In this document: piece by piece, positions 8,237 to 30,265 of the stretch
How the letters are laid out: every line of letters starts with the position of its first letter
Position numbering within the stretch: position 1 is the first letter of the stretch
Assembly: GCA_028684435.1 (NCBI GenBank)
Contig: JAQUFX010000001.1
Location: 1 to 34,463 of the forward strand
Length of the DNA: 34,463 nt
Direction of reading: 5' to 3'
Origin: Bacilli bacterium
GTDB lineage: Bacteria > Bacillota_I > Bacilli_A > RF39 > UBA660
Made by a program: the position numbers and the translations under genes
The notes under the pieces: model-generated
Seen by the model: only the letters and a program-made list of their open reading frames with translations
Database searches by the model: none
Told to the model about the DNA's origin: nothing

Positions 8237-8252
8237 ATAATAAATTTAGGTG

Positions 8253-9023
8253 ATGCCTATTATTATTTATATTGATTTAGTAATATTAATTAATTTTATT
8301 ATTGATTTATTACTTCTTATTAGTGTCGATTTACTTTTAAAAAGAAAAGCAAAATTTAAAAGAATAATTATAGCATCTATATTAGGGAGTATATCAACCT
8401 TGTTATTATTTTATATTAATAATAATTTTATGTTATTAATATTTAAACTGTTTATTAGTATATTAATGGTTATTATAGCTTTTAAATATGAAACATTTAA
8501 TTATTTTAAAGATAATATTATATGGCTTTATATATTAGGAATAATATTAGGAGGAACAATTTTTCTTCTTAATAATCAAATAGCTTTAGTTAATAATGGT
8601 TTAGTTTTTTCAGAAAGTGGTTTTAAAATTAATATAATTATTTTATGTATTATTAGTCCAATAATAATTTATAAATATTTACAATATCAAAAAAGTTATC
8701 AAAATATTTATTCTGAAACTTATGATGTTGACATATATTATAAAGGAATAAAAATAACTGGTACTGGTTTTTTAGATACTGGTAATAAAATAAAAGATCC
8801 TTACTTTGGAAGACCAATTATATTAATTAATAAAGATCTTATTAAAAAAGAAGTCAATACTTTTTTAGTCCCTTATAATTCAGTTGGATATAAAGGTATG
8901 CTTAAAGTATTTAAACCGGATAAAGTTAAAATAAATGAAAAAATTACTAAAAAAGTCTTAATTGGTTTAGCTGATGTTAATTTAAATGGCATAAAAATAG
9001 TTTTAAATACGGAGGTAGTGTGA
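8253..9023 (+). CDS. spoIIGA: SpoIIGA, sporulation sigma-E processing aspartic protease
   Basis: Five-TM N-terminus, aspartic protease motif 'GTGFLDTGNKIKDPYFGRPIILINK', immediately upstream of sigE. Confidence 0.9.
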   Translation: MPIIIYIDLVILINFIIDLLLLISVDLLLKRKAKFKRIIIASILGSISTLLLFYINNNFMLLIFKLFISILMVIIAFKYETFNYFKDNIIWLYILGIILGGTIFLLNNQIALVNNGLVFSESGFKINIIILCIISPIIIYKYLQYQKSYQNIYSETYDVDIYYKGIKITGTGFLDTGNKIKDPYFGRPIILINKDLIKKEVNTFLVPYNSVGYKGMLKVFKPDKVKINEKITKKVLIGLADVNLNGIKIVLNTEVV

Positions 9024-9202
9024 GATATAAAACATAAAAATAAGACACAAAAAAATGAACACCGTTATTACCATGTTTTAACATGTTAATTTAAATTAAA
9101 ATTATGCTGTTTGCTCTTGGGTAATATTATAAATAAATAGAAAGGAAAAGTCAAAAAGGAGTAAATCCCATTCCTTTTTGAGAAGGTCGTTTTACGATCT
9201 AT

Positions 9203-9907
9203 ATGGTAGTTAATATGAAAAAGATATTATTATGGTTATGTAAAGTATTTAAAATAAGAAGTGAATTATTATTTGTCGGTAGTACTGATATTCTCCCTCC
9301 CCCTTTATCAAAAGAAGAAGAATTAAATTATATTATAAGATTTAAAGAAGGAGACCAGCTAGCTAGAGATAAACTTATTGAACATAATTTAAGATTAGTT
9401 GTTTTTTTAGCTAAAAAATATGAAAGTACGGGTTATGATATTGAAGATTTAGTAAGTATTGGCTCAATTGGTTTAATTAAAGGTATTCAAACTTACAAAC
9501 CAGATAAAAACATTAAATTAGCAACTTATTCAAGTCGATGTATTACTAATGAAATATTAATGTTTATTAGAAAAAATAAACGCAGAAAATCTGAAATTAG
9601 TTTTGAAGATGCTATTAATTTCGATACAGAAGGAAATGAACTTCATTTAGAAGATATTTTAGGTACCGAAGAAGATATTGTTTATAAAAGCTTTGAAGAA
9701 AAAACTGATAAAGAAAGTTTAGAAAAAGAACTAAATTTACTTACCGAGAGAGAAAAAATCATTATGACTTTAAGATATGGTTTAAATAATACTGATGATT
9801 ACACCCAAAAAGAAGTAGCTGAAATGTTAGGAATAAGTCAGTCTTATATATCGAGAATCGAAAAAAAGGTTATTAAAAAAGTTAAGTCATTATTAGAAAG
9901 TAGATAA
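9203..9907 (+). CDS. sigE: RNA polymerase sporulation sigma factor SigE precursor
   Basis: Pro-sequence plus 'LPPPLSKEEELNYIIRF..GDQLARDKLIEHNLRLVVFLAKKYESTGYDIEDLVSIGSIGLIKG', 'QKEVAEMLGISQSYISRIEKK'. Confidence 0.95.
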   Translation: MVVNMKKILLWLCKVFKIRSELLFVGSTDILPPPLSKEEELNYIIRFKEGDQLARDKLIEHNLRLVVFLAKKYESTGYDIEDLVSIGSIGLIKGIQTYKPDKNIKLATYSSRCITNEILMFIRKNKRRKSEISFEDAINFDTEGNELHLEDILGTEEDIVYKSFEEKTDKESLEKELNLLTEREKIIMTLRYGLNNTDDYTQKEVAEMLGISQSYISRIEKKVIKKVKSLLESR

Positions 9908-9914
9908 TCTGAAT

Positions 9915-9959
9915 AAAAAAAGCTCCTTAAAACCAAGATAACTTTGGAAGGAGTTTTTT
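9915..9959 (+). promoter_or_regulatory. Terminator-like hairpin sequestering the sigG SD
   Basis: CTCCTT (9923-9928) pairs with AAGGAG (9948-9953), CCAA (9933-9936) with TTGG (9944-9947); flanked by A-run and T-run. Confidence 0.8.
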
Positions 9960-9961
9960 AT

Positions 9962-10735
9962 TTGAGTAAATATAAAGTAGATATAATAGGAATTGATACT
10001 AATAATTTAAAAGTACTGAAAAAAGATGAAATGAATGTCTTATTTAAAAAATTTCAAAATGGTAATAATAATGCCAAAGAAGAATTAATAAATGGTAATT
10101 TAAAATTAGTTCTCAGTATTATTAAAAAATATAATAATGGTAAATATGATATGAATGATTTATTCCAAATTGGATGTATTGGTTTAATTAAAGCAGTTGA
10201 TAATTTTTCTCTTGATTATAATGTCATGTTTTCAACCTATGCTGTTCCTCTTATATTGGGAGAAGTAAAAAGATATATTAGAGATTCCAGTGTTGTAAGA
10301 ATTAGTCGCAGTATTAGAGATAATGCTTATCAAATATTAAAGTATAAAGATAAATATTTACTCGAACATGGTATTGAACCAACTTATGATGATATATGTA
10401 ATTATTTAGGAATAACTGAATATGAATTATCTTCAGCTTTAGAAAGTTTAATTACTCCAATTAGTATCTTTAGTCCGATATATAATGATGGGGGAGATAC
10501 AATATATTTACTTGATCAATTACCTGATAAAAAAGAAAAAGTTGATAAAGATGATTCAATAAGTTTACAAAGAGCATTAAATAAAATTAATGAAAGAGAA
10601 TCAAGTGTCCTTTATGCTAGATATATTTATGGCAAAACCCAAATGGAAATAGCAGATGACTTAGGTGTTTCACAAGCCCAAGTATCAAGAATAGAAAAAA
10701 ATGCTATCAAGAATGTCAAACGCTTAATGAAATAA
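9962..10735 (+). CDS. sigG: RNA polymerase sporulation sigma factor SigG (TTG start)
   Basis: 'YKVDIIGIDTNNLKVLKKDEM', 'FSTYAVPLILGEVKRYIRDSSVVRISRSIRDNAY', 'QMEIADDLGVSQAQVSRIEK'. TTG 9962 is 8 nt after AAGGAG. Confidence 0.93.
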   Translation: MSKYKVDIIGIDTNNLKVLKKDEMNVLFKKFQNGNNNAKEELINGNLKLVLSIIKKYNNGKYDMNDLFQIGCIGLIKAVDNFSLDYNVMFSTYAVPLILGEVKRYIRDSSVVRISRSIRDNAYQILKYKDKYLLEHGIEPTYDDICNYLGITEYELSSALESLITPISIFSPIYNDGGDTIYLLDQLPDKKEKVDKDDSISLQRALNKINERESSVLYARYIYGKTQMEIADDLGVSQAQVSRIEKNAIKNVKRLMK

Positions 10736-16656: not shown

Positions 16657-17385
16657 ATGAGTAAGATATATAAAATAGTATTTATCGTATTAATTACTTT
16701 ATTTATAAGCAATATAAAAGTGTTTGCAGTAAACACTACATGTACATATGAAGAGAAAGCAAATCTAAATGATATAGCAGGAAAAATTACTGCAAATTAT
16801 AAAATAGATGAAACAAAAGAGAAATATGAATTTACTAATCCTGATACGGGAGAAAAATCAATTGAAGAACAAATAAACACTAAATTTATTATTAGTATTT
16901 ATAATATTTTAGATGATGTTTATATTATTCAAACTAATGATGTTGATAGTGAAGAAGTAAGTATTCATTATGATGAAGCAACAAAAGGGGTATATACATT
17001 TGAAGCTAATAATACTTCTGATATTATAAAATATACCTATAATATTTATTCAAACTTAGAAGGGTGCCGAGGAGAAATATTAAAAACTTTTGTTTTTACA
17101 AAACCAAAAATTAATATGTATTCTCAATATGGAATATGTAAAGGCTTAGAAGATACTGATTTTTGTCAAAAATATATAACAGAGGAATTAAATCTTACTG
17201 AAAATGGTCTTTATGAAAAAGTTCAAGCAATGCAAAAATCAACAGTAAAAGTAAAAGAAAAGAATAATAAAGAGGGTATATCAGATTTTATAATTGATAA
17301 TTATATTTATTTAATAATTGGTACTATTGTAATAAGTGGGGCAGTTGTAGGGTATATAATTGTTAAAAAAAGGAGAGCCCTATGA
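16657..17385 (+). CDS. Exported protein with C-terminal TM anchor, unknown function (Tad-locus associated)
   Basis: N-terminal signal (MSKIYKIVFIVLITLFISNIKVFA), paired Cys, C-terminal TM 'YIYLIIGTIVISGAVVGYIIVKKRRAL'; ATGA overlap with next ORF. Confidence 0.75.
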   Translation: MSKIYKIVFIVLITLFISNIKVFAVNTTCTYEEKANLNDIAGKITANYKIDETKEKYEFTNPDTGEKSIEEQINTKFIISIYNILDDVYIIQTNDVDSEEVSIHYDEATKGVYTFEANNTSDIIKYTYNIYSNLEGCRGEILKTFVFTKPKINMYSQYGICKGLEDTDFCQKYITEELNLTENGLYEKVQAMQKSTVKVKEKNNKEGISDFIIDNYIYLIIGTIVISGAVVGYIIVKKRRAL

Positions 17386-20300
17386 AACAATTAAAATATG
17401 GAATATTTTTATTATTAAGTTTAGCATTTATTACTGTAGAAGTTAATGCTAATACGGGAATATGTGCTGGGAAAGATACAGATTCTTATGGTTATTGTCA
17501 AATTACACCTGTTAAAATAAATGGTTCAGCTATTGCAGAGCAACCAATAAAATTTACTGATGGTTCATCAGCTCTTATTAATAGTTATTCAGGTTTTGTT
17601 ATTGATAGAAATCAAATGATGTTTTGTATTGATGCTAATTATAATGCTCCGGGAGATCAATTATATGGTATTGCTAGACCATTTAATGTAAGTAGTTCAA
17701 ATTATGATCGTGCTATTGCTAAAGTTTATGGTGCTTATATTAATGAAGTAATATACTTAATGAATGAAGGCAATTCTAAAGAAGCAGCTTATAATCGATA
17801 TTTACAAATGATAAATGTAGTTATGAGAGCAATTACAATTAAATTTAACTATTATATGCAAGGGGGATCATCACAATATCTTATTAATAATTTATTAGCA
17901 TATCAAAATGTAGTTAAACAATTAGATGGTTTAAATCCTCCAGGTAAAAAATTAAAAGAAGATGCTGTTTATTATCCAATTCTTAAAAAATGGTATACTG
18001 CTGCATTAAGCAGTACTGAACCAGTTCAGATTAAAATTGATTTTAGTTCTAAAAATGAAGAAATAACTACTGAATATGTTGGTAATAATTTTACTCAAAC
18101 AATACCAGTAATAGTAAAAGGATTAAGTAAGTTTACTAATACTACTTATGCAATTACTAATCCTAGCTTTAAAATAAAATCCGTAAAATGTGAAAATGAA
18201 AAATTAAATTGTAGTTTAGAAAGTGCAACTCCAATTAATACAAATTTAATACCAAATATAACTGATGATAAATATGAATTTAAAGTAATAGTAAAAGGAG
18301 ATAAAACTAACTTTTTAGATGAAAGTGCAACAAAAGTTATTATTGAATATGAAAAATATCATATTTTAGATATTGATAATTTAGCCGCTTTAAGATATTC
18401 AAATACTAATCAAACAAGACAAAGAATGATTGTATTAATGCCTGAAACTCCTCAAACTGCTAATGTAAAAATAAATATATCTATACCATCTATGTGTGAA
18501 GCTGAAGTTACTGGTGGAGTTCAAAAATATTCTTATGGTGGCACCTCGATGAGTGAACTTCAATATCTAAAAACAGGATGTTGTAATGTAGAATATGATT
18601 ATTTAAAAGATAAGGATGCAAAAGAATATTATTTAGAAAATTGTTCTACTGGTGATGTAATTCATTTAGAAGATGTATGTAATAATGAAACTAATGAAAT
18701 GTCTCACTCTTATGTATATCAAACTACAATTGACAAGATAATGAATCAAGTTATCGGGGCAGAAGACATGTATATTAAAAAATCTTATTCTCTTAATACC
18801 TTAAAAAACATGTTAACTAAATATGATAATAATATTGATAATGTATATTCAGAAGATAATATATCTCGCCAAAATGATTATTGCAAAATGTATACTAGTG
18901 AAAAACAAGATATATATTATCCGGGAACTGCTGAGTCAACCGGTGGGCGATTTTTTGTATTTCGCGAAATCGGTACTAATAATTTTTTACAACCTAAAGT
19001 AAATGGGGAAATTTATGCTGATTTCCATACAGATGTGAATAGATGGTTTGAAGATTATGAAAAAGCAATAGAAATTGAAAAAATCACATATACTTTATGG
19101 CAACATGAACTTAACTTAGCTGATTCTGTTGCTGTCGCTTATTCTAATCCAGAAGATAAGGTATGTACTTATGAATGCGGAACTGAGGAAGAACCAGAAA
19201 CATGTGAGGCAGATTATACATATTATTCTGGAACATCTAAAGGAATATATTATTTCGCAAATGGAAATACTCAATCACGAGAATATTCGAGTTGGGAGAC
19301 TTATACACCATGTTCTGGATCACCTAGACCACACACAAATGTTCCGGGAAAAGAAAATGATTATAGACAAGCGAAGTCTAAAAGAGAAAATTTAGAAAAA
19401 TATAAAGAAGAATGTGAAGCGAAAACTAATATTAAAGATGATTGGAAATATCAATTATCTCCTGAATTAACATTTTATTATAAACAAAAAGTAAATGCTT
19501 TAAGTGATTCTAACTCTTCAGAAACTATAACTGAAACTGTACCTATGGAAATTTCTAAAGAAAATGTTAAATATTGGGAAGGAGTAAGTAAAAATCCTCA
19601 GTTAATTAATGGCTCACTTAAAGGAACTGAAAACATAAAACCATATTCATTTTGGTACGGTGGAGGTAGCTCTAAAGTTAGTAAATCTTTCCCTTATGAT
19701 AATAATATCGATTATCAAATAGGTTATACCCAAGAATTATTTTATAAGCCATCAACCTATTATTATAGTTTAGTCCCATCAGGTAAATATATAACATCAA
19801 AAGAGAAAAAAGAAGGAACAAGTGTCATAGATGTTGGATATGTATTTAATGTTGAAATAACAAATTATGAAGGTGTATATGAAACATGGTTTGAAATAGA
19901 AGATATTGGTCATTTAATGAAAGATCCATCTGATAAACCAAAATTAAAATCAAATGTTCAAAATTCTGTTGATGATTATATAGATAAAAATAAAGATAAA
20001 TATTTAGATCATGAAGATAAAGTAAATACTGAATTATTTGCAAGTAAATGCTTTTATGACAATAAAGAAGTATTATATCAAAGAGATTGTCTAGATTGTA
20101 CTGATCCTAATTTTGAAGCTCAATTCTTTTATCGCACTGTTTCAATCAATAATATTAATCCTAATAATCGTACTAATACTAATTGGACATCAAATAAAGG
20201 TAATCAAGCTAAAGGATCTGTTGAATCATTAGGTGATAAAATTTATAATGATAAAACTAAAAAATATTTAGAATATTCATTTACGTTAGATCCTAGTGAT

Positions 20301-20549
20301 ATGAATGAAATGAAAAAACATAATAAAGATAATAAATATACTAATTTTCAATTAAAATGTAAAAATGGTAAAGAATGTGAAAGTGATTTTCTTACTTTGT
20401 GGGCGAAAAAATCTAATACTGAAGATATACTAACTGATACTAGAAATAATAAATGGAAATATTTTATAAATGGTGCTTGGACTAGTGGTAAAATATCAGA
20501 TTATGGAGGATATCCTCCCGAAACAGAAATTCTAACTGATTGGCCATAA
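17382..20549 (+). CDS. 1055-aa secreted Cys-rich protein, possible degenerate thioester-adhesin-like N-domain
   Basis: Signal peptide (MKQLKYGIFLLLSLAFITVEVNA); 'MMFCIDANYNAPGDQLYG'; many Cys pairs (CCNVEYDYL, CTYECGTEEEPETCEADY, CLDCTDPNF); no C-terminal TM or LPXTG. Confidence 0.7.
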   Translation: MKQLKYGIFLLLSLAFITVEVNANTGICAGKDTDSYGYCQITPVKINGSAIAEQPIKFTDGSSALINSYSGFVIDRNQMMFCIDANYNAPGDQLYGIARPFNVSSSNYDRAIAKVYGAYINEVIYLMNEGNSKEAAYNRYLQMINVVMRAITIKFNYYMQGGSSQYLINNLLAYQNVVKQLDGLNPPGKKLKEDAVYYPILKKWYTAALSSTEPVQIKIDFSSKNEEITTEYVGNNFTQTIPVIVKGLSKFTNTTYAITNPSFKIKSVKCENEKLNCSLESATPINTNLIPNITDDKYEFKVIVKGDKTNFLDESATKVIIEYEKYHILDIDNLAALRYSNTNQTRQRMIVLMPETPQTANVKINISIPSMCEAEVTGGVQKYSYGGTSMSELQYLKTGCCNVEYDYLKDKDAKEYYLENCSTGDVIHLEDVCNNETNEMSHSYVYQTTIDKIMNQVIGAEDMYIKKSYSLNTLKNMLTKYDNNIDNVYSEDNISRQNDYCKMYTSEKQDIYYPGTAESTGGRFFVFREIGTNNFLQPKVNGEIYADFHTDVNRWFEDYEKAIEIEKITYTLWQHELNLADSVAVAYSNPEDKVCTYECGTEEEPETCEADYTYYSGTSKGIYYFANGNTQSREYSSWETYTPCSGSPRPHTNVPGKENDYRQAKSKRENLEKYKEECEAKTNIKDDWKYQLSPELTFYYKQKVNALSDSNSSETITETVPMEISKENVKYWEGVSKNPQLINGSLKGTENIKPYSFWYGGGSSKVSKSFPYDNNIDYQIGYTQELFYKPSTYYYSLVPSGKYITSKEKKEGTSVIDVGYVFNVEITNYEGVYETWFEIEDIGHLMKDPSDKPKLKSNVQNSVDDYIDKNKDKYLDHEDKVNTELFASKCFYDNKEVLYQRDCLDCTDPNFEAQFFYRTVSINNINPNNRTNTNWTSNKGNQAKGSVESLGDKIYNDKTKKYLEYSFTLDPSDMNEMKKHNKDNKYTNFQLKCKNGKECESDFLTLWAKKSNTEDILTDTRNNKWKYFINGAWTSGKISDYGGYPPETEILTDWP

Positions 20550-23855: not shown

Positions 23856-24647
23856 ATGTTAATAGAAGTTTTACTATTAGGAGTCCTTTTATATATTATT
23901 TTAGAATATAATGGCAGTATTAGTACCAATAAATTTATTGTTGACAATAGTAGTATATTTATAAAATTAAAAGAAAAAGATTATGATTTTTATGTCAAAG
24001 CCAAATATGGAGACTCAATTGATGTAGAAAAATTATTTAATATTAGATTGAGAAATGGATTATTTGTAATATTAATAATGATCTTTCTTTTTATAACTAA
24101 TTTAAATTTTGCAAATATTTTATTTTGTATAATAGCAGGCTATGGGGTATTTAAATTATCTTATTTGTCATTTAAAAAATATTATAAAGCTCATTTACAT
24201 CAGATTGATTTAATGCTTCCATATTATTTAAAAAATTTAGAAATATTAGTTCAACATTATACTGTTCCAGTGGCATTAGGTAAATCAGTGTCAGATGCTC
24301 CTAAAATTTTTAGAGAAGGCTTAAAAACTTTAATTGAAAAAATTAATGCCGGTGATAGCACTATAAATCCCTATATGGAATTTGCAAGAGATTATCCTGT
24401 AAGAGATTCAATGAGAATGATGAGGTTGTTATACCGTTTAAGTTTAGGTAGCAATGAAAGAAAACAAGAACAATTATTAACTTTTTCTCGTAACATATCA
24501 AATTTACAACAAAAAGCTAGAGAATCAAGATATAAAGAAAGATTAGAAAAAATGGAAAGTAAAACAATGGTCATGTTAGTAACTACAGGGGTAGGGGTTA
24601 TGGCATTGTTAATTATTTCAATTTTAATGATGTTTACATCGGCGTAA
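23856..24647 (+). CDS. tadC: TadC-like inner-membrane platform protein
   Basis: 'DLMLPYYLKNLEILVQHYTVPVALGKSVSDAPKIFREGLKTL...RLLYRLSLGSNERKQEQLLTFSRNISNLQQKARESRYKERLEKMESKTMVMLVTTGVGVMALLII'. Confidence 0.75.
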   Translation: MLIEVLLLGVLLYIILEYNGSISTNKFIVDNSSIFIKLKEKDYDFYVKAKYGDSIDVEKLFNIRLRNGLFVILIMIFLFITNLNFANILFCIIAGYGVFKLSYLSFKKYYKAHLHQIDLMLPYYLKNLEILVQHYTVPVALGKSVSDAPKIFREGLKTLIEKINAGDSTINPYMEFARDYPVRDSMRMMRLLYRLSLGSNERKQEQLLTFSRNISNLQQKARESRYKERLEKMESKTMVMLVTTGVGVMALLIISILMMFTSA

Positions 24648-24674
24648 AACCTAGCAATTAAAACAAAAAAATAT

Positions 24675-24702
24675 AAAAATTGACATATTTGTCAATTTTT
24701 TT
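24675..24702 (+). terminator. Terminator of Tad operon
   Basis: AAAAATTGACA-TATT-TGTCAATTTTT plus further Ts. Confidence 0.85.
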
Positions 24703-24712
24703 CATTTTAGGG

Positions 24713-24741
24713 TTGATTTTTATAAAAATAATAGATATAAT
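24713..24741 (+). promoter_or_regulatory. SigA-type promoter for orphan ncRNA
   Basis: TTGATT (24713-24718), 17 nt, TATAAT (24736-24741). Confidence 0.8.
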
Positions 24742-24744
24742 ATA

Positions 24745-25140
24745 ATTGCTTAAGGTAAATTAGAACAATCAATTAATGACTTGCATAATTTTTCCATAAG
24801 AAAAGTTATGCATAAAAAATTATTAGAAATAATAATTTTAAAAATTTATTTATTAAATTTAACAAGATAATTTTTACTAAAATTAAAATTATTAAAAATT
24901 TAATAAATGATAATTAATTTTGTTTTAATTAGTAATGAAGTTTTACGAAAGTAAAATCTTATCTACGGTAAGCGGGACAATTGTTTTCGGAGAGTGTGTT
25001 ACTCCAAATGATAGGTAGTTACCGGGTTGTACTGATAATACTCCGCAATTATATATATTATTTTTTTAAATAAATATAATGTATATTGTAGCTATTCATC
25101 AAACCAAACTAGGTATTTTATCAGAGTATCTAGTTTTTTT
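24745..25140 (+). ncRNA. Structured non-coding RNA, family unknown (core approx. 24745-25055; transcript may run to the terminator at 25106-25140)
   Basis: 550-bp gap with no ORF; own promoter and terminator; 13-bp hairpin 24782-24812; GNRA hairpin 24940-24957; CGGTAA/TTACCG helix; end-closing AATTGC/GCAATT; locally GC-rich core in an AT-rich genome. Confidence 0.7.
25106..25140 (+). terminator. Intrinsic terminator
   Basis: AAACTAGGTA...TATCTAGTTT followed by T-run. Confidence 0.8.
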
Positions 25141-25143
25141 GTG

Positions 25144-25172
25144 TTGCAATAAGTTCTTCGATTTGTTATAAT
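25144..25172 (+). promoter_or_regulatory. SigA-type promoter for ATPase cassette
   Basis: TTGCAA (25144-25149), 17 nt, TATAAT (25167-25172). Confidence 0.75.
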
Positions 25173-25200
25173 TTATTATAGAATAGAGGTTTATTAAGGG

Positions 25201-26328
25201 ATGAATGATTGGATTAGTGTATATAAAAAAAATAAAAAAATCAATCTTTATCAATATATGTATTTAATATCTAACATATTGTCAATTGATAACAAAAAAA
25301 TCTTAGGCAGTAAAAAAAGAACCTCAGAAATTTTAGAAAAAATATGCGATATATATATAGACGAGATTTATTTAAAAAATAATAAGAAAAATAATTTAAG
25401 TAATATGTTTATTGAAAATAAATATATTGATGATTATAAATTACATAAAGAGATATATTCTACAGTTAAATATTTTATAAATAATAATATTGTACTTGAT
25501 ATTAAAAATAATGAAAGAGATATTATATTAATTGCTGTATTTATTAAATTAGTTATTAAATTAGATAGTTTAACTAATCCATTTACAAGTGAAAAAATAA
25601 ATATATATAATTTAGCTATTGAATATATAAATTTATATCATAAAATAGATTTTATTTATTTAATAGATGAAGGCAAGAAAAATACTAAATTATTAATTGA
25701 AACAATTAAAATAAACTCTATAAAAGAAAAAAAGTTTTTTAATATTTTAACCAATAATAACTCATTTAATAAATATATTAGAATAAATGAAAATGTTTCT
25801 TGTTATATTACTCAATATAATTACTATATCGAAAGATTAGAAAATTATGATATAAAACCAATTAAAAATGTGTATGAAACATCAAAAACAGATGAGCAAT
25901 TCACTTTTATAAGTATTGAATTAGCAATTATTACCTTATTAAAAGAAATGGCCGTTCAAAAAGATTTAAGCACATACTTAATCCCTGTTAAAAAAGATTT
26001 TTTTGAAAAAGACAAAAATATTAAGGATTTAAAATCGGTATTTGAATTAAAGATAATTAATAAAAAAATAAAATTACTTATAAATTATGATGACATAAAT
26101 AATAATTTACTTAATATATTAAAAAGAAATAAAATAGATTATTATATATATTGTAATAAAAATGCAACTATAACCACTTTTGACGAGAGTGAAAAATATG
26201 TTTTTAGTAAAGAATTTATTAAAAAACATCAACTTGAAGCAGCAAATAATGTTATACTAGAAACAATAAATGTATATATGAAAGATAATGATATAATATT
26301 TTTGAAAGATAAGGAGATTAAAATATGA
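25201..26328 (+). CDS. Hypothetical 375-aa protein, first gene of ATPase cassette
   Basis: Intact ORF, 4-nt overlap with next gene; no family recognised. Confidence 0.7.
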   Translation: MNDWISVYKKNKKINLYQYMYLISNILSIDNKKILGSKKRTSEILEKICDIYIDEIYLKNNKKNNLSNMFIENKYIDDYKLHKEIYSTVKYFINNNIVLDIKNNERDIILIAVFIKLVIKLDSLTNPFTSEKINIYNLAIEYINLYHKIDFIYLIDEGKKNTKLLIETIKINSIKEKKFFNILTNNNSFNKYIRINENVSCYITQYNYYIERLENYDIKPIKNVYETSKTDEQFTFISIELAIITLLKEMAVQKDLSTYLIPVKKDFFEKDKNIKDLKSVFELKIINKKIKLLINYDDINNNLLNILKRNKIDYYIYCNKNATITTFDESEKYVFSKEFIKKHQLEAANNVILETINVYMKDNDIIFLKDKEIKI

Positions 26329-27833
26329 ACATATATGGGGAATTTTTTCTGAAGTTTATGGAACCGTTTTTTGGAGGCATAATAAGCTTATTTGCTGAAT
26401 TAGGAAAGTCATTGTATAGAATATTTAATATCCTTACTTATATTGATATTATTAAAGAATATATAACTGAATTAAGTGGCATAGGAGTAGTAATGGTAGT
26501 CATAGCTACACTTTGTTTATTATTATTATTTGGTCTATTCTTCTTCTTTATTTATAAATTAATAACTAATTTTATAAAATATCGTCAAAGAATGAAACAT
26601 CAAGAATCATTAGTTGAAGAAATAGATAATTTAAATAATGAAGTTATAAAACTTAAAAGTGAAAATGAAAAATTTCTTAATATGACTGATCCTACTTCTG
26701 GTGAAATAGAATATGATGAAGATGGAAATGTAATTAATAAATTATCTGAAGGTGAAAGTAGATTTTTTAAATTATCTCAAGTAGATAATATGATGCAAAC
26801 TTACGAAGCAAAAATATATGCTGAAATAACATCATTAGAGAATTTATGTCAAGATTTTCTTTATTATTCAGCATCTAAATTAGGATTATATTATGATATT
26901 TCTTTAATAAGATTGTTTGTATCAGCATTTGCTTCTAATAAATTGATAATTTTGCAAGGTATATCTGGTACTGGTAAAACATCGCTAGCATATGCATGGG
27001 GTAACTTTATTAATAATAATACTATAATAGCACCTGTCCAACCATCTTGGCGAGATAGTTCAGAGTTATTTGGATATTTTAATGAATTTACGAAAAGATT
27101 TAATGAAACTGAAGTATTAACTAAAATGTATGAAGCTAAATATATAGATAATGTATACATAACATTGTTAGATGAAATGAATATATCACGTGTTGAATAT
27201 TATTTTGCTGAAATGCTTTCGATATTGGAACTTCCTTCATCTGATGAATGGGTTATTGATTTAGTGCCGAATACTTGGGATAATGATCCAAAGTTACTTG
27301 AAAATGGTCGTTTAAAAATACCTATTAATATGTGGTATATAGGAACAATAAATAATGATGATTCAACATTTATGATAACTGATAAAGTTTATGACCGTGC
27401 TATGCCAATAAATATAGATATAAAAATCCCTCCATTTGAAGCTCCTGATACTGAATCAATTAATTTATCTAGTAAAAACTTTATTGATTTATTAATTAAA
27501 TCAAGAGAAGAACATCCAGTTAGTGAAGAAACATTAAATAAAGTATCAGAAATGGATGATTATGTAATAAATCATTTCCGTATTGCATTTGGTAATCGTA
27601 TAGTTAAACAATTAAGAGATTTTATTCCTGCTTATGTTGCTTGTGGTGGCGACGAAATGATAGCAGTTGATTATATAATTGCTCATAAGATATTAAGAAA
27701 GTTTGACCAATTAAATTTATCATATATAAGAAATGAAATAGATGGATTTATTATCTTTTTAAATCAAACATTTGGACAAGATATAATGAAAGAATGTATT
27801 ATATACTTAGAAAGACTTAAGAAGACAATATAG
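26325..27833 (+). CDS. Membrane-anchored McrB/MoxR-like AAA+ ATPase
   Basis: TM 'VVMVVIATLCLLLLFGLFFFFIYKLI'; Walker A 'LQGISGTGKTSLAYAWG'; Walker B 'VYITLLDEMNISRVEYYFAEMLSILE'; sensor 'WYIGTINNDDSTFMITDKVYDRAMPINI'. Confidence 0.85.
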   Translation: MNIYGEFFLKFMEPFFGGIISLFAELGKSLYRIFNILTYIDIIKEYITELSGIGVVMVVIATLCLLLLFGLFFFFIYKLITNFIKYRQRMKHQESLVEEIDNLNNEVIKLKSENEKFLNMTDPTSGEIEYDEDGNVINKLSEGESRFFKLSQVDNMMQTYEAKIYAEITSLENLCQDFLYYSASKLGLYYDISLIRLFVSAFASNKLIILQGISGTGKTSLAYAWGNFINNNTIIAPVQPSWRDSSELFGYFNEFTKRFNETEVLTKMYEAKYIDNVYITLLDEMNISRVEYYFAEMLSILELPSSDEWVIDLVPNTWDNDPKLLENGRLKIPINMWYIGTINNDDSTFMITDKVYDRAMPINIDIKIPPFEAPDTESINLSSKNFIDLLIKSREEHPVSEETLNKVSEMDDYVINHFRIAFGNRIVKQLRDFIPAYVACGGDEMIAVDYIIAHKILRKFDQLNLSYIRNEIDGFIIFLNQTFGQDIMKECIIYLERLKKTI

Positions 27834-27848
27834 TAAAGGAGTAATATT

Positions 27849-28949
27849 ATGACTGAAAGATTTTTAGATTTAGTAAATAATGTACCAACTGATGATTTAG
27901 ATTTGTTTTCATCCAAAACAAAATCAACATTAACTGCTAAAAAATATGTTGAAAAAGTTTCAGTTGATTTTTCTTGGGTAGATGAAATTTATGAATCAAT
28001 TCCTTATATCGATAATATAATTCGTAATCCAAGAAGTTTTATTACTCAAGAAGAAGATATAATTAGAATTGAAAAAGTTAAAAAAGTTAGTGAAGAATCA
28101 GTAAAGCATTTAGCCCAGCATACTTCTTTAATTCAAAAAGTTGATCAAGATGGTACAGTAAAACCACTTAAATTATTAAATGTATTCAAAGAAGAAACAA
28201 TTGATTTATATGAAAATAGATTTATTTATTCATTAATAAAAAATTTAAATGTATTTATTCAAAGTCAGTTAATATATAAAGATGAAGAATCTTTTAATAA
28301 GGAAGTTAAAACAGTTAATTATGAAGCACAAACTAAATTTGAAAAAGAAGATATTACAATCAAAATTTTAATGAGGTCAGATAATTATGAAAACTTAACT
28401 GTATCTAGTGAAAAAGCTATTGATTTAAAAGAAAAATTAAATTATATCGCTGATATTATAGAAGATTTTATGAGTAGTAAATTTATGAAAACTATGAAAA
28501 ATGCTACTCCAGTAAGATCACCAATTAGAAAAACAAATATAATACTTAAAGATGTCAACTTTATTTATGCTTTAAAGTTATGGGAATTTTTAGAAGGTTA
28601 TCAAGTTGAAACACCTCTTAAAAAATATAAAGAAACAATTGATCTAGCTAGTAATAAACTTGATAATAATTATGCTTTAACTTATTATTTAAATTATTAT
28701 TTTTTAAATGATAGAGATAGAAATGAAAATGAAGAAACTAATAAACATGCCGGCTTAAAAAAAATAATATTTGATACTGCTAAAGATTTTGATAATGATG
28801 AAATTGAATTAAGAAAATTATTAAATAATGAGTTAGGATTAGCAGCAAAGTATAAACAAGATCAAATAAAAGGAATTAATTTAGCATTTAAAGATTTTAT
28901 TGATAATCATCATAAAAAGATGAATGAAGCATTATTTATCTTAAAATAA
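27849..28949 (+). CDS. DUF2357/McrC-N-like protein
   Basis: 'VFKEETIDLYENRFIYSLIKNLNVFI' resembles the 'DTyENRFvk..L' motif of DUF2357 proteins; no PD-(D/E)XK motif seen; pairs with McrB-like gene. Confidence 0.55.
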   Translation: MTERFLDLVNNVPTDDLDLFSSKTKSTLTAKKYVEKVSVDFSWVDEIYESIPYIDNIIRNPRSFITQEEDIIRIEKVKKVSEESVKHLAQHTSLIQKVDQDGTVKPLKLLNVFKEETIDLYENRFIYSLIKNLNVFIQSQLIYKDEESFNKEVKTVNYEAQTKFEKEDITIKILMRSDNYENLTVSSEKAIDLKEKLNYIADIIEDFMSSKFMKTMKNATPVRSPIRKTNIILKDVNFIYALKLWEFLEGYQVETPLKKYKETIDLASNKLDNNYALTYYLNYYFLNDRDRNENEETNKHAGLKKIIFDTAKDFDNDEIELRKLLNNELGLAAKYKQDQIKGINLAFKDFIDNHHKKMNEALFILK

Positions 28950-28975
28950 TTTTAAATTAATGGAAGGGAGAAAAA

Positions 28976-30265
28976 ATGGCTGATAAGAATAAAAAAGAAC
29001 CCAAAGCTAATCCGATATTGGGTCGAACTGGTCAATCTATTGATTTAGTTAAATTTAATATTAAAAATGAACAAGATCAGTTTACGGAAATAGAAAAAAT
29101 ATTAAAAGAAATATATCAAGATAATCTTAAAATTAGTAGAAAATATATTTTAAAATGTTTGAAATTAACATGGACTGTTAATGATAATTATATATTTCTC
29201 CCTTATAATTTAAAAGTTTCAAGAGAAAAATTCACTTTAAAATTTGATGTTCAACCGAAAAAAGGCATAAGTTTTGGTTGGATAATATTTGCTATTTGGT
29301 TATTTATATTTTCTATTATTGGTGCTACCTATGCTGGTTTTGCATATCTTAGTATTGCAAATTTAAATAAAGATATTGATGGAGATGGAATAGCAGATAT
29401 TAATATTGATATTAATAATGATAAATTAGCTGAAATTAATATTGATATAAATAATGATGATATACCAGATTTAAATATCGATTACAAAGGAAATCGGAGA
29501 GCGGTATTTAATATTGATACTGATGGTGATGAAAAAGCCAATTATAATTTAATAAATGATGCAACTGGTGGTAAATCATGCTCAATTAATTGTGATTTAA
29601 AAGGTGATGGATGGCCTGATATAAATTTAGATTTAGATGGTGATGGTATAATAGATACTGACATGGATACTGATAATGATAAAGTGCCAGATTTAAATTT
29701 AGATGTTAATGGTGATGGTCTTTGTGATATTATGTGTGATACAAATGGAGATGGAGTTTGTGATGTTAAGTGTATTAAAGCAGAAGAATTTAACAAAGAT
29801 ATAAAGACTGGAACATCTACCCAAACAGGATCAAGTAATATTGAAACTTCTACGCCATATTTATTAATAAATTATAATGACGGTATAACTGTAAATGTCA
29901 GAGGATTATTACCAGATGATCAACCTGAAACCTTTGGACTTCCGGTTTTAAAACCAGTTAAAGAATTTACTGTCGAAAATTTATCCGATTATCCCATATA
30001 TTATGGAGTAAGATGGAATGTATATACTAATACGTTTGTAACTAACAATTTAAAATATACAATTAAAGGTACAAATGGTGCTCCAAATCTAGAACCTACA
30101 ACAATGCCGTTAACGTCAAAATCTATATACGAAAGAGTATTAATTATGCCTAGAGTAAGTCAAAAATTCAAGGTTGAAATTAATCTACAAGGTACTGGAG
30201 TACCTCAAAATGATGATCAAGGAAAAGTATTTATAGGTCATATTGAAATTGATTTAAATAATTAA
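28976..30265 (+). CDS. Single-TM protein with extracellular Asp-rich 12-aa repeats and C-terminal beta-domain
   Basis: TM 'GWIIFAIWLFIFSIIGATYAGFAYL' then repeats NIDINNDDIPDL / NLDLDGDGIIDT / NLDVNGDGLCDI / MCDTNGDGVCDV. Confidence 0.8.
   Translation: MADKNKKEPKANPILGRTGQSIDLVKFNIKNEQDQFTEIEKILKEIYQDNLKISRKYILKCLKLTWTVNDNYIFLPYNLKVSREKFTLKFDVQPKKGISFGWIIFAIWLFIFSIIGATYAGFAYLSIANLNKDIDGDGIADINIDINNDKLAEINIDINNDDIPDLNIDYKGNRRAVFNIDTDGDEKANYNLINDATGGKSCSINCDLKGDGWPDINLDLDGDGIIDTDMDTDNDKVPDLNLDVNGDGLCDIMCDTNGDGVCDVKCIKAEEFNKDIKTGTSTQTGSSNIETSTPYLLINYNDGITVNVRGLLPDDQPETFGLPVLKPVKEFTVENLSDYPIYYGVRWNVYTNTFVTNNLKYTIKGTNGAPNLEPTTMPLTSKSIYERVLIMPRVSQKFKVEINLQGTGVPQNDDQGKVFIGHIEIDLNN
29368..29776 (+). 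repeat. About eleven degenerate 36-bp (12-aa) repeats encoding DxDxDGxxD Ca-binding-like units
   Basis: Translation shows recurring [N/D]-[I/L/M/C]-D-x-[N/D]-[N/G]-D-x-x-x-D-[I/L]. Confidence 0.8.

Follow-up and report, generated by a model that had tools for sequence, protein, structure and literature searches.

The window (the whole 34,463-nt stretch of Bacilli bacterium DNA analysed here, contig JAQUFX010000001.1) contains 553 bases (24648-25200) between the end of a Tad-like locus (24647) and the start of an ATPase cassette (25201) in which no open reading frame exceeds 51 amino acids. Near the head of the Tad-like locus, at 17382-20549, a 1055-aa secreted-looking, cysteine-containing protein is encoded. 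The cassette 3' of this stretch (25201-30265) encodes a protein without a Pfam match, a P-loop ATPase resembling McrB by eye, a DUF2357 protein and then a membrane protein with acidic repeats; DUF2357 occurs in McrC-like partners, and the cassette is possibly an McrBC-like system. At 8250-10735 the window encodes proteins resembling SpoIIGA, SigE and SigG by eye; the genome measures about 0.95 Mb. With spoIVA present in 348 of the 386 genomes of the order, sporulation appears to be a trait of this small-genome gut clade.

A preliminary description of the intergenic stretch had proposed a highly structured RNA with its own promoter and an intrinsic terminator, and our analysis bore this out. 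The features of the locus are as follows.

24713-24741, + strand: sigma-A type promoter TTGATT-N17-TATAAT (sequence match; counterparts at homologous loci)
24748-25139, + strand: whole RNA gene, about 392 nt (predicted start based on the -10 box, predicted end on the terminator U-run)
24748-24752, + strand: H1, the RNA 5' end GCUUA, partner of H1' (promoter-anchored covariation)
24753-24940, + strand: AT-rich 5' domain of hairpins, variable between genera (fold, alignment)
24941-24956, + strand: P0 hairpin TTTTAC-GAAA-GTAAAA, directly before P1 (sequence)
24951-25045, + strand: stretch matched by Rfam RF03040, PGK RNA (41.9 bits, E 0.001)
24958-24963, + strand: P1 5' strand CUUAUC (6/6 pairs changed on both sides, 94% paired)
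24969-24973, + strand: H1', UAAGC inside the P1 loop, partner of the 5' end (promoter-anchored covariation)
24977-24984, + strand: self-complementary site ACAAUUGU, predicted dimerisation site, between H1' and P2 (inner 4 nt self-complementary across copies)
24989-25005, + strand: P2 hairpin GGAG/CUCC with a conserved A/G-rich loop (99.6% paired)
25010-25015, + strand: P1 3' strand GAUAGG (aligned-copy pair counts)
25016-25022, + strand: P4 5' strand UAGUUAC (P4 permutation test)
25023-25045, + strand: P3 hairpin (CGGG/UCCG plus GUA/UAC) with the 7-nt loop CUGAUAA at 25032-25038 (aligned-copy pairing)
25088-25094, + strand: P4 3' strand GUAGCUA (G036, of the same genus, has the exact complement GTAACTA)
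25106-25139, + strand: intrinsic terminator, its 7-nt loop UUAUCAG (25118-25124) complementary to the P3 loop (pairing in aligned copies)
25144-25172, + strand: separate promoter TTGCAA-N17-TATAAT of the next gene at 25201 (kept in the other four aligned loci)

Folding of 24748-25140 gave -90.6 kcal/mol, compared with -59.0 +/- 4.4 for shuffled sequences (z -7.1). At homologous loci, a TTGACA-N15-19-TATAAT-like promoter upstream of the relatives scored 10.4 out of 12 on average, against 5.4 in shuffled sequence. The window terminator was overlooked by a simple terminator scan because its stem is AT-rich, and was revealed by the covariance model together with about 90 relatives; its stem was 97% paired in 90 aligned copies and showed two-sided changes at 8/8 pairs.

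Searching the locus with Rfam cmscan returned a sole meaningful match, to RF03040, whereas raiA, 6S, RNase P, tmRNA, OLE and ROOL gave nothing significant. PGK RNA is a metagenome motif reportedly described by Weinberg and colleagues in 2017, and its name presumably reflects a position upstream of the pgk gene. The match spans the full model (1-92) and includes P1, P2, P3 and the conserved P2 and P3 loops, and its score falls below the gathering score of 50.8 bits. The homology is nevertheless established, because G036, which carries the same genes on both sides, reaches 54.4 bits and so passes the cut-off. These comparisons indicate that the window copy is a divergent homologue of the RF03040 core rather than a certified member. 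The raiA motif (RF03072), put forward earlier as a candidate, was not matched in 24600-25300 even at E up to 10; it had no match in 117 genomes of the order either, which is weak evidence, as control genomes also gave none.

The RNA had been regarded as an orphan without a family, a view that its distribution overturns. A search of 386 genomes of the order with RF03040 gave matches at E up to 0.01 in 80, of which 60 pass the cut-off, and the best relatives reach 98 bits; a retrained core model (R2) found copies in at least 89 of the 386. Because a copy is detectable in about a quarter of the sampled genomes, the RNA is either dispensable for the clade or has diverged beyond detection. Among 397 sampled genomes of the class, it was present only in the bacterial family of the host itself. 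The core pattern occurred in 112 stretches of GTDB genomes, and among the 80 matches listed nearly all were uncultured gut assemblies labelled Bacilli, Tenericutes, Bacillales or Erysipelotrichaceae. No match to the core pattern was found in viral contigs, and a viral origin was dropped. Scanning the loci of the relatives against Rfam gave no match other than PGK. One apparent copy (G307, L084) was discarded because it resembles part of a coding gene, and two poorly aligned copies (G028 and G357) were omitted from most tests.

In 90 aligned copies, standard pairs made up 95.8% of positions in P1, P2, P3, the terminator stem, the outer palindrome pairs and the loop contact, with the alignment itself fitted to all of these helices except the loop contact. 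The covariation score was 0.502, compared with 0.159 for shuffled copies and at most 0.08 when the strands were slid. H1, P4 and the loop contact lie outside the model and were assessed by permutation tests, which keep the pool of segments and are not fully corrected for shared ancestry. With 5' ends located by promoter score alone, H1 pairing in 55 non-redundant copies had a mean of 9.18 against 5.92 +/- 0.21 when permuted (0/2000), and H1 was also seen in 16/16 copies fetched later. P4 scored 6.16 against 4.31 +/- 0.15 (0/2000). Pairing between the P3 loop CUGAUAA and the terminator loop UUAUCAG scored 7.47 against 6.85 +/- 0.09 (0/3000) and was intact in 97.5%; one of its seven pairs changes from UA to CG in 11 copies while the others are nearly invariant, so that this contact shows the least covariation of all features of the structure. 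In the window itself, H1 comprises only 5 bp and P3 is weak.

Since H1 and P1 interleave, they form a pseudoknot. An A-B-A'-B' pseudoknot had been suggested from the window alone, and its P1 half (CTTATC at 24958 with GATAGG at 25010) is conserved together with the promoter and terminator in the relatives. The partner helix proved to be a different one, formed by the RNA 5' end and UAAGC rather than by TTACCG: the proposed CGGTAA (24966)/TTACCG (25019) pairing is present in the window but is broken in G036 (CGCTAA), and each of its strands is used by another supported helix, as it shares bases with H1' and P4. The 13-bp AT hairpin, the ATTTATTAAATTT/AAATTTAATAAAT helix and P0 are all present as described, with P0 only weakly supported in relatives (5.47 against 4.87 +/- 0.14 permuted). 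Two further pairings, AATTGC/GCAATT and TAGaACAATC/GGTTGTaCTG, were not conserved in the relatives.

The genes around the copies differ from genus to genus and include murG, EF-P with a spore-germination permease, spoIVA, a sigma factor, tgt, argS, metG, ffh, whiA, topA and others. With spoIVA so widespread in the order, its presence is uninformative about a link of the RNA to sporulation. Across about 90 copies in 386 genomes, pgk adjoins only two (G310 and G037), both of one genus, and the window copy is followed instead by a gene without a Pfam match. Most copies have their own promoter and the same kind of terminator. Because the neighbours vary, the next gene lies on the opposite strand in 9/81 cases, and promoter and terminator belong to the RNA, we conclude, as first proposed, that it is a stand-alone gene rather than a riboswitch acting in register with the gene that follows. 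Rfam takes PGK RNA for a cis-regulatory leader, which would sense something and control terminator read-through into the next gene. Such a leader would fit the same-strand next gene in 72/81 cases, the terminator after the motif, and pgk as the next gene in that one genus. Against it, the next gene changes between genera and strands, and the window and four aligned loci have a promoter for the next gene beyond the terminator. The conserved contact engages the terminator loop, and no competing strand that would make an anti-terminator can be seen. Nor was the conserved downstream gene or regulon expected of a cis-regulatory leader or riboswitch found among the neighbours. We consider a leader distinctly unlikely, and for most copies the Cis-reg type assigned by Rfam is probably wrong. 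Our comparison of the loci indicates instead that the PGK motif is a fragment (92 nt, one quarter) of an independent ncRNA gene.

The stand-alone RNA carries a self-complementary site between H1' and P2, the inner four nucleotides of which were self-complementary in 45 of 53 non-redundant copies, compared with a mean of 19.3 and a maximum of 28 in 5000 permutations. The palindrome centres among the copies were AATT (the commonest form, and that of the window), ATAT, ACGT, GATC, GCGC, AGCT and GTAC, and CTAG, TATA and CATG were found outside the training set. As adjacent bases cannot pair within one chain, the retention of self-complementarity points to pairing between two chains. In seven genomes with two paralogues (G024, G086, G339, G274, G052, G057 and G136) the two palindromes differ, which would be expected of RNAs that each pair only with themselves; in four of the seven the P3 loops differ between the paralogues too. 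On this sequence evidence, the RNA has an OLE-like covarying self-complementary contact; the covarying-palindrome argument also supported intermolecular contacts of OLE and GOLLD RNA (PMC12286853). We strongly predict a homodimer joined through the central palindrome, and infer that two chains would pair in the cell.

The outer pairs of the site can also make a stem with a 4-nt loop, so that the palindrome might fold back as a small hairpin within a monomeric structured RNA and no dimer would form; the raiA RNA, which is similar and also stands alone, is monomeric (PMC12286853). We regard this as unlikely, given that the inner four nucleotides, unpairable within one chain, stay self-complementary through many sequences, that palindromes differ between paralogues of one genome, and that the A and B units described below exchange self- for cross-complementarity. 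The exposed palindrome or the P3 loop might also pair with mRNAs, as in a trans-acting antisense regulator, and short conserved exposed loops are typical of regulatory RNAs. This seems very improbable, because the palindrome drifts provided that its match to self or sibling stays, and the P3 loop is already matched in the RNA's own terminator.

One branch lacks the palindrome; its loci carry a pair of related units, separated by 184-549 nt and arranged in either order. Unit A has the P3 loop CTGATAA and unit B the terminator loop TTATCAG. Where the palindrome would lie, A and B are complementary to each other (TGTAATTT/AAATTACA, ACTGTAACT/AGTTACAGT, TATAATCTTTT/AAAAGATTATA, AATATTATA/TATAATATT and others): complementarity in 16 non-redundant pairs was 10.73 against 7.43 +/- 0.43 when permuted (0/5000), whereas the self-complementarity of A and B at the same site was only 6.0 and 6.7. 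In most A/B loci, B comes with a separate promoter and 5'-end helix. Four loci (L069, L085, L158 and L134) show no promoter between A and B, and the units look fused; there, the strand of B's 5'-end helix sits in the linker. The B units of L071, L126, L148 and L155 share a P3 loop resembling AATGA, and also a TTTAGCGGGTAG-like stretch that A units lack. Tandem copies of the RNA lie roughly 310 to 1230 nt apart (L045, L051, L070, L128 and L168).

Operators are often palindromic, and the site could be imagined as a DNA operator for a dimeric protein instead of an RNA feature. An operator would keep its sequence, whereas here the sequence drifts and self-complementarity alone is kept, and the A and B units are non-palindromic yet mutually complementary across 180-550 bp; we give this possibility practically no credence. 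For an RNA dimer, the A/B loci bear on the loop contact as well: the P3 loop sequence is kept only in A and its terminator-loop match only in B, so that the contact, if formed, joins two units there. We infer that the P3 loop and the terminator loop may likewise meet between chains in the homodimer. The direction of change, homodimer first and A/B heterodimer later, is assumed.

As a whole, the observations are best explained by an independent trans-acting structured ncRNA gene of ~390 nt whose product dimerises and is likely a scaffold or RNP core, an explanation that we hold to be probable. RNA polymerase would start at 24748, and the first nucleotides would fold back into the P1 loop to form the pseudoknot. 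The P3 hairpin would be enclosed by P4, and the terminator hairpin would be part of the fold, since its loop matches the P3 loop. Two copies would join at 24977-24984, probably aided by contacts of the P3 loop with the terminator loop between both chains. The dimer would most likely act as a scaffold or RNP core, like OLE, rather than control an adjacent gene as its leader; a scaffold is our guess, by analogy with that RNA. We also lean, though narrowly, towards a new class of RNA dimer: a stand-alone homodimer held by a palindrome and reciprocal P3-loop/terminator-loop contacts, with paralogues separated by different palindromes, that turned into a heterodimer or a single fused RNA in sister lineages.

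The gene shares with RF03040 the homologous core of P1, P2, P3 and conserved loops (24951-25045). Rfam models 92 nt as a cis-regulator, whereas the gene is roughly 250-400 nt long with its own promoter and terminator, and has in addition the 5'-end pseudoknot, P4, the match of the P3 loop to the terminator and the dimerisation site. OLE, ROOL and GOLLD are RNA-only homo-oligomers (PMC12286853). They are likewise stand-alone structured RNAs, and OLE and GOLLD also have a symmetric self-complementary site with inner nucleotides covarying between palindromes. In contrast to these three, the RNA described here is smaller, gives no match to their covariance models in the locus, and has its homodimer site replaced by an A/B heterodimer site in sister lineages. 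Like our RNA, the raiA motif, or ModT RNA, belongs to spore-forming Bacillota, stands alone and contains a pseudoknot, and in some species it ends in an intrinsic terminator (PMC11706538, PMC11751092). It differs in that it is monomeric (PMC12286853) and that its architecture rests on a terminal P1 stem (PMC11751092), whereas our RNA base-pairs its 5' end with an internal segment.

Few RNA oligomers occur in nature, and whether they matter biologically is contested (PMC12286853). In a single bacterial family, some 100 copies would allow dimerisation to be tested independently through evolution, with orthogonal palindromes and matched A/B pairs already supplied by nature. The database reading is corrected as well: the PGK motif appears to be one part of an independent gene, so that looking for a glycolysis riboswitch would be a false trail. 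If the dimer is true, its chains would be among the very few natural RNA partners open to direct testing. To our knowledge, this would also be the first time that evolution is seen to move an RNA between homodimer, heterodimer and fusion, a kind of change familiar from proteins.
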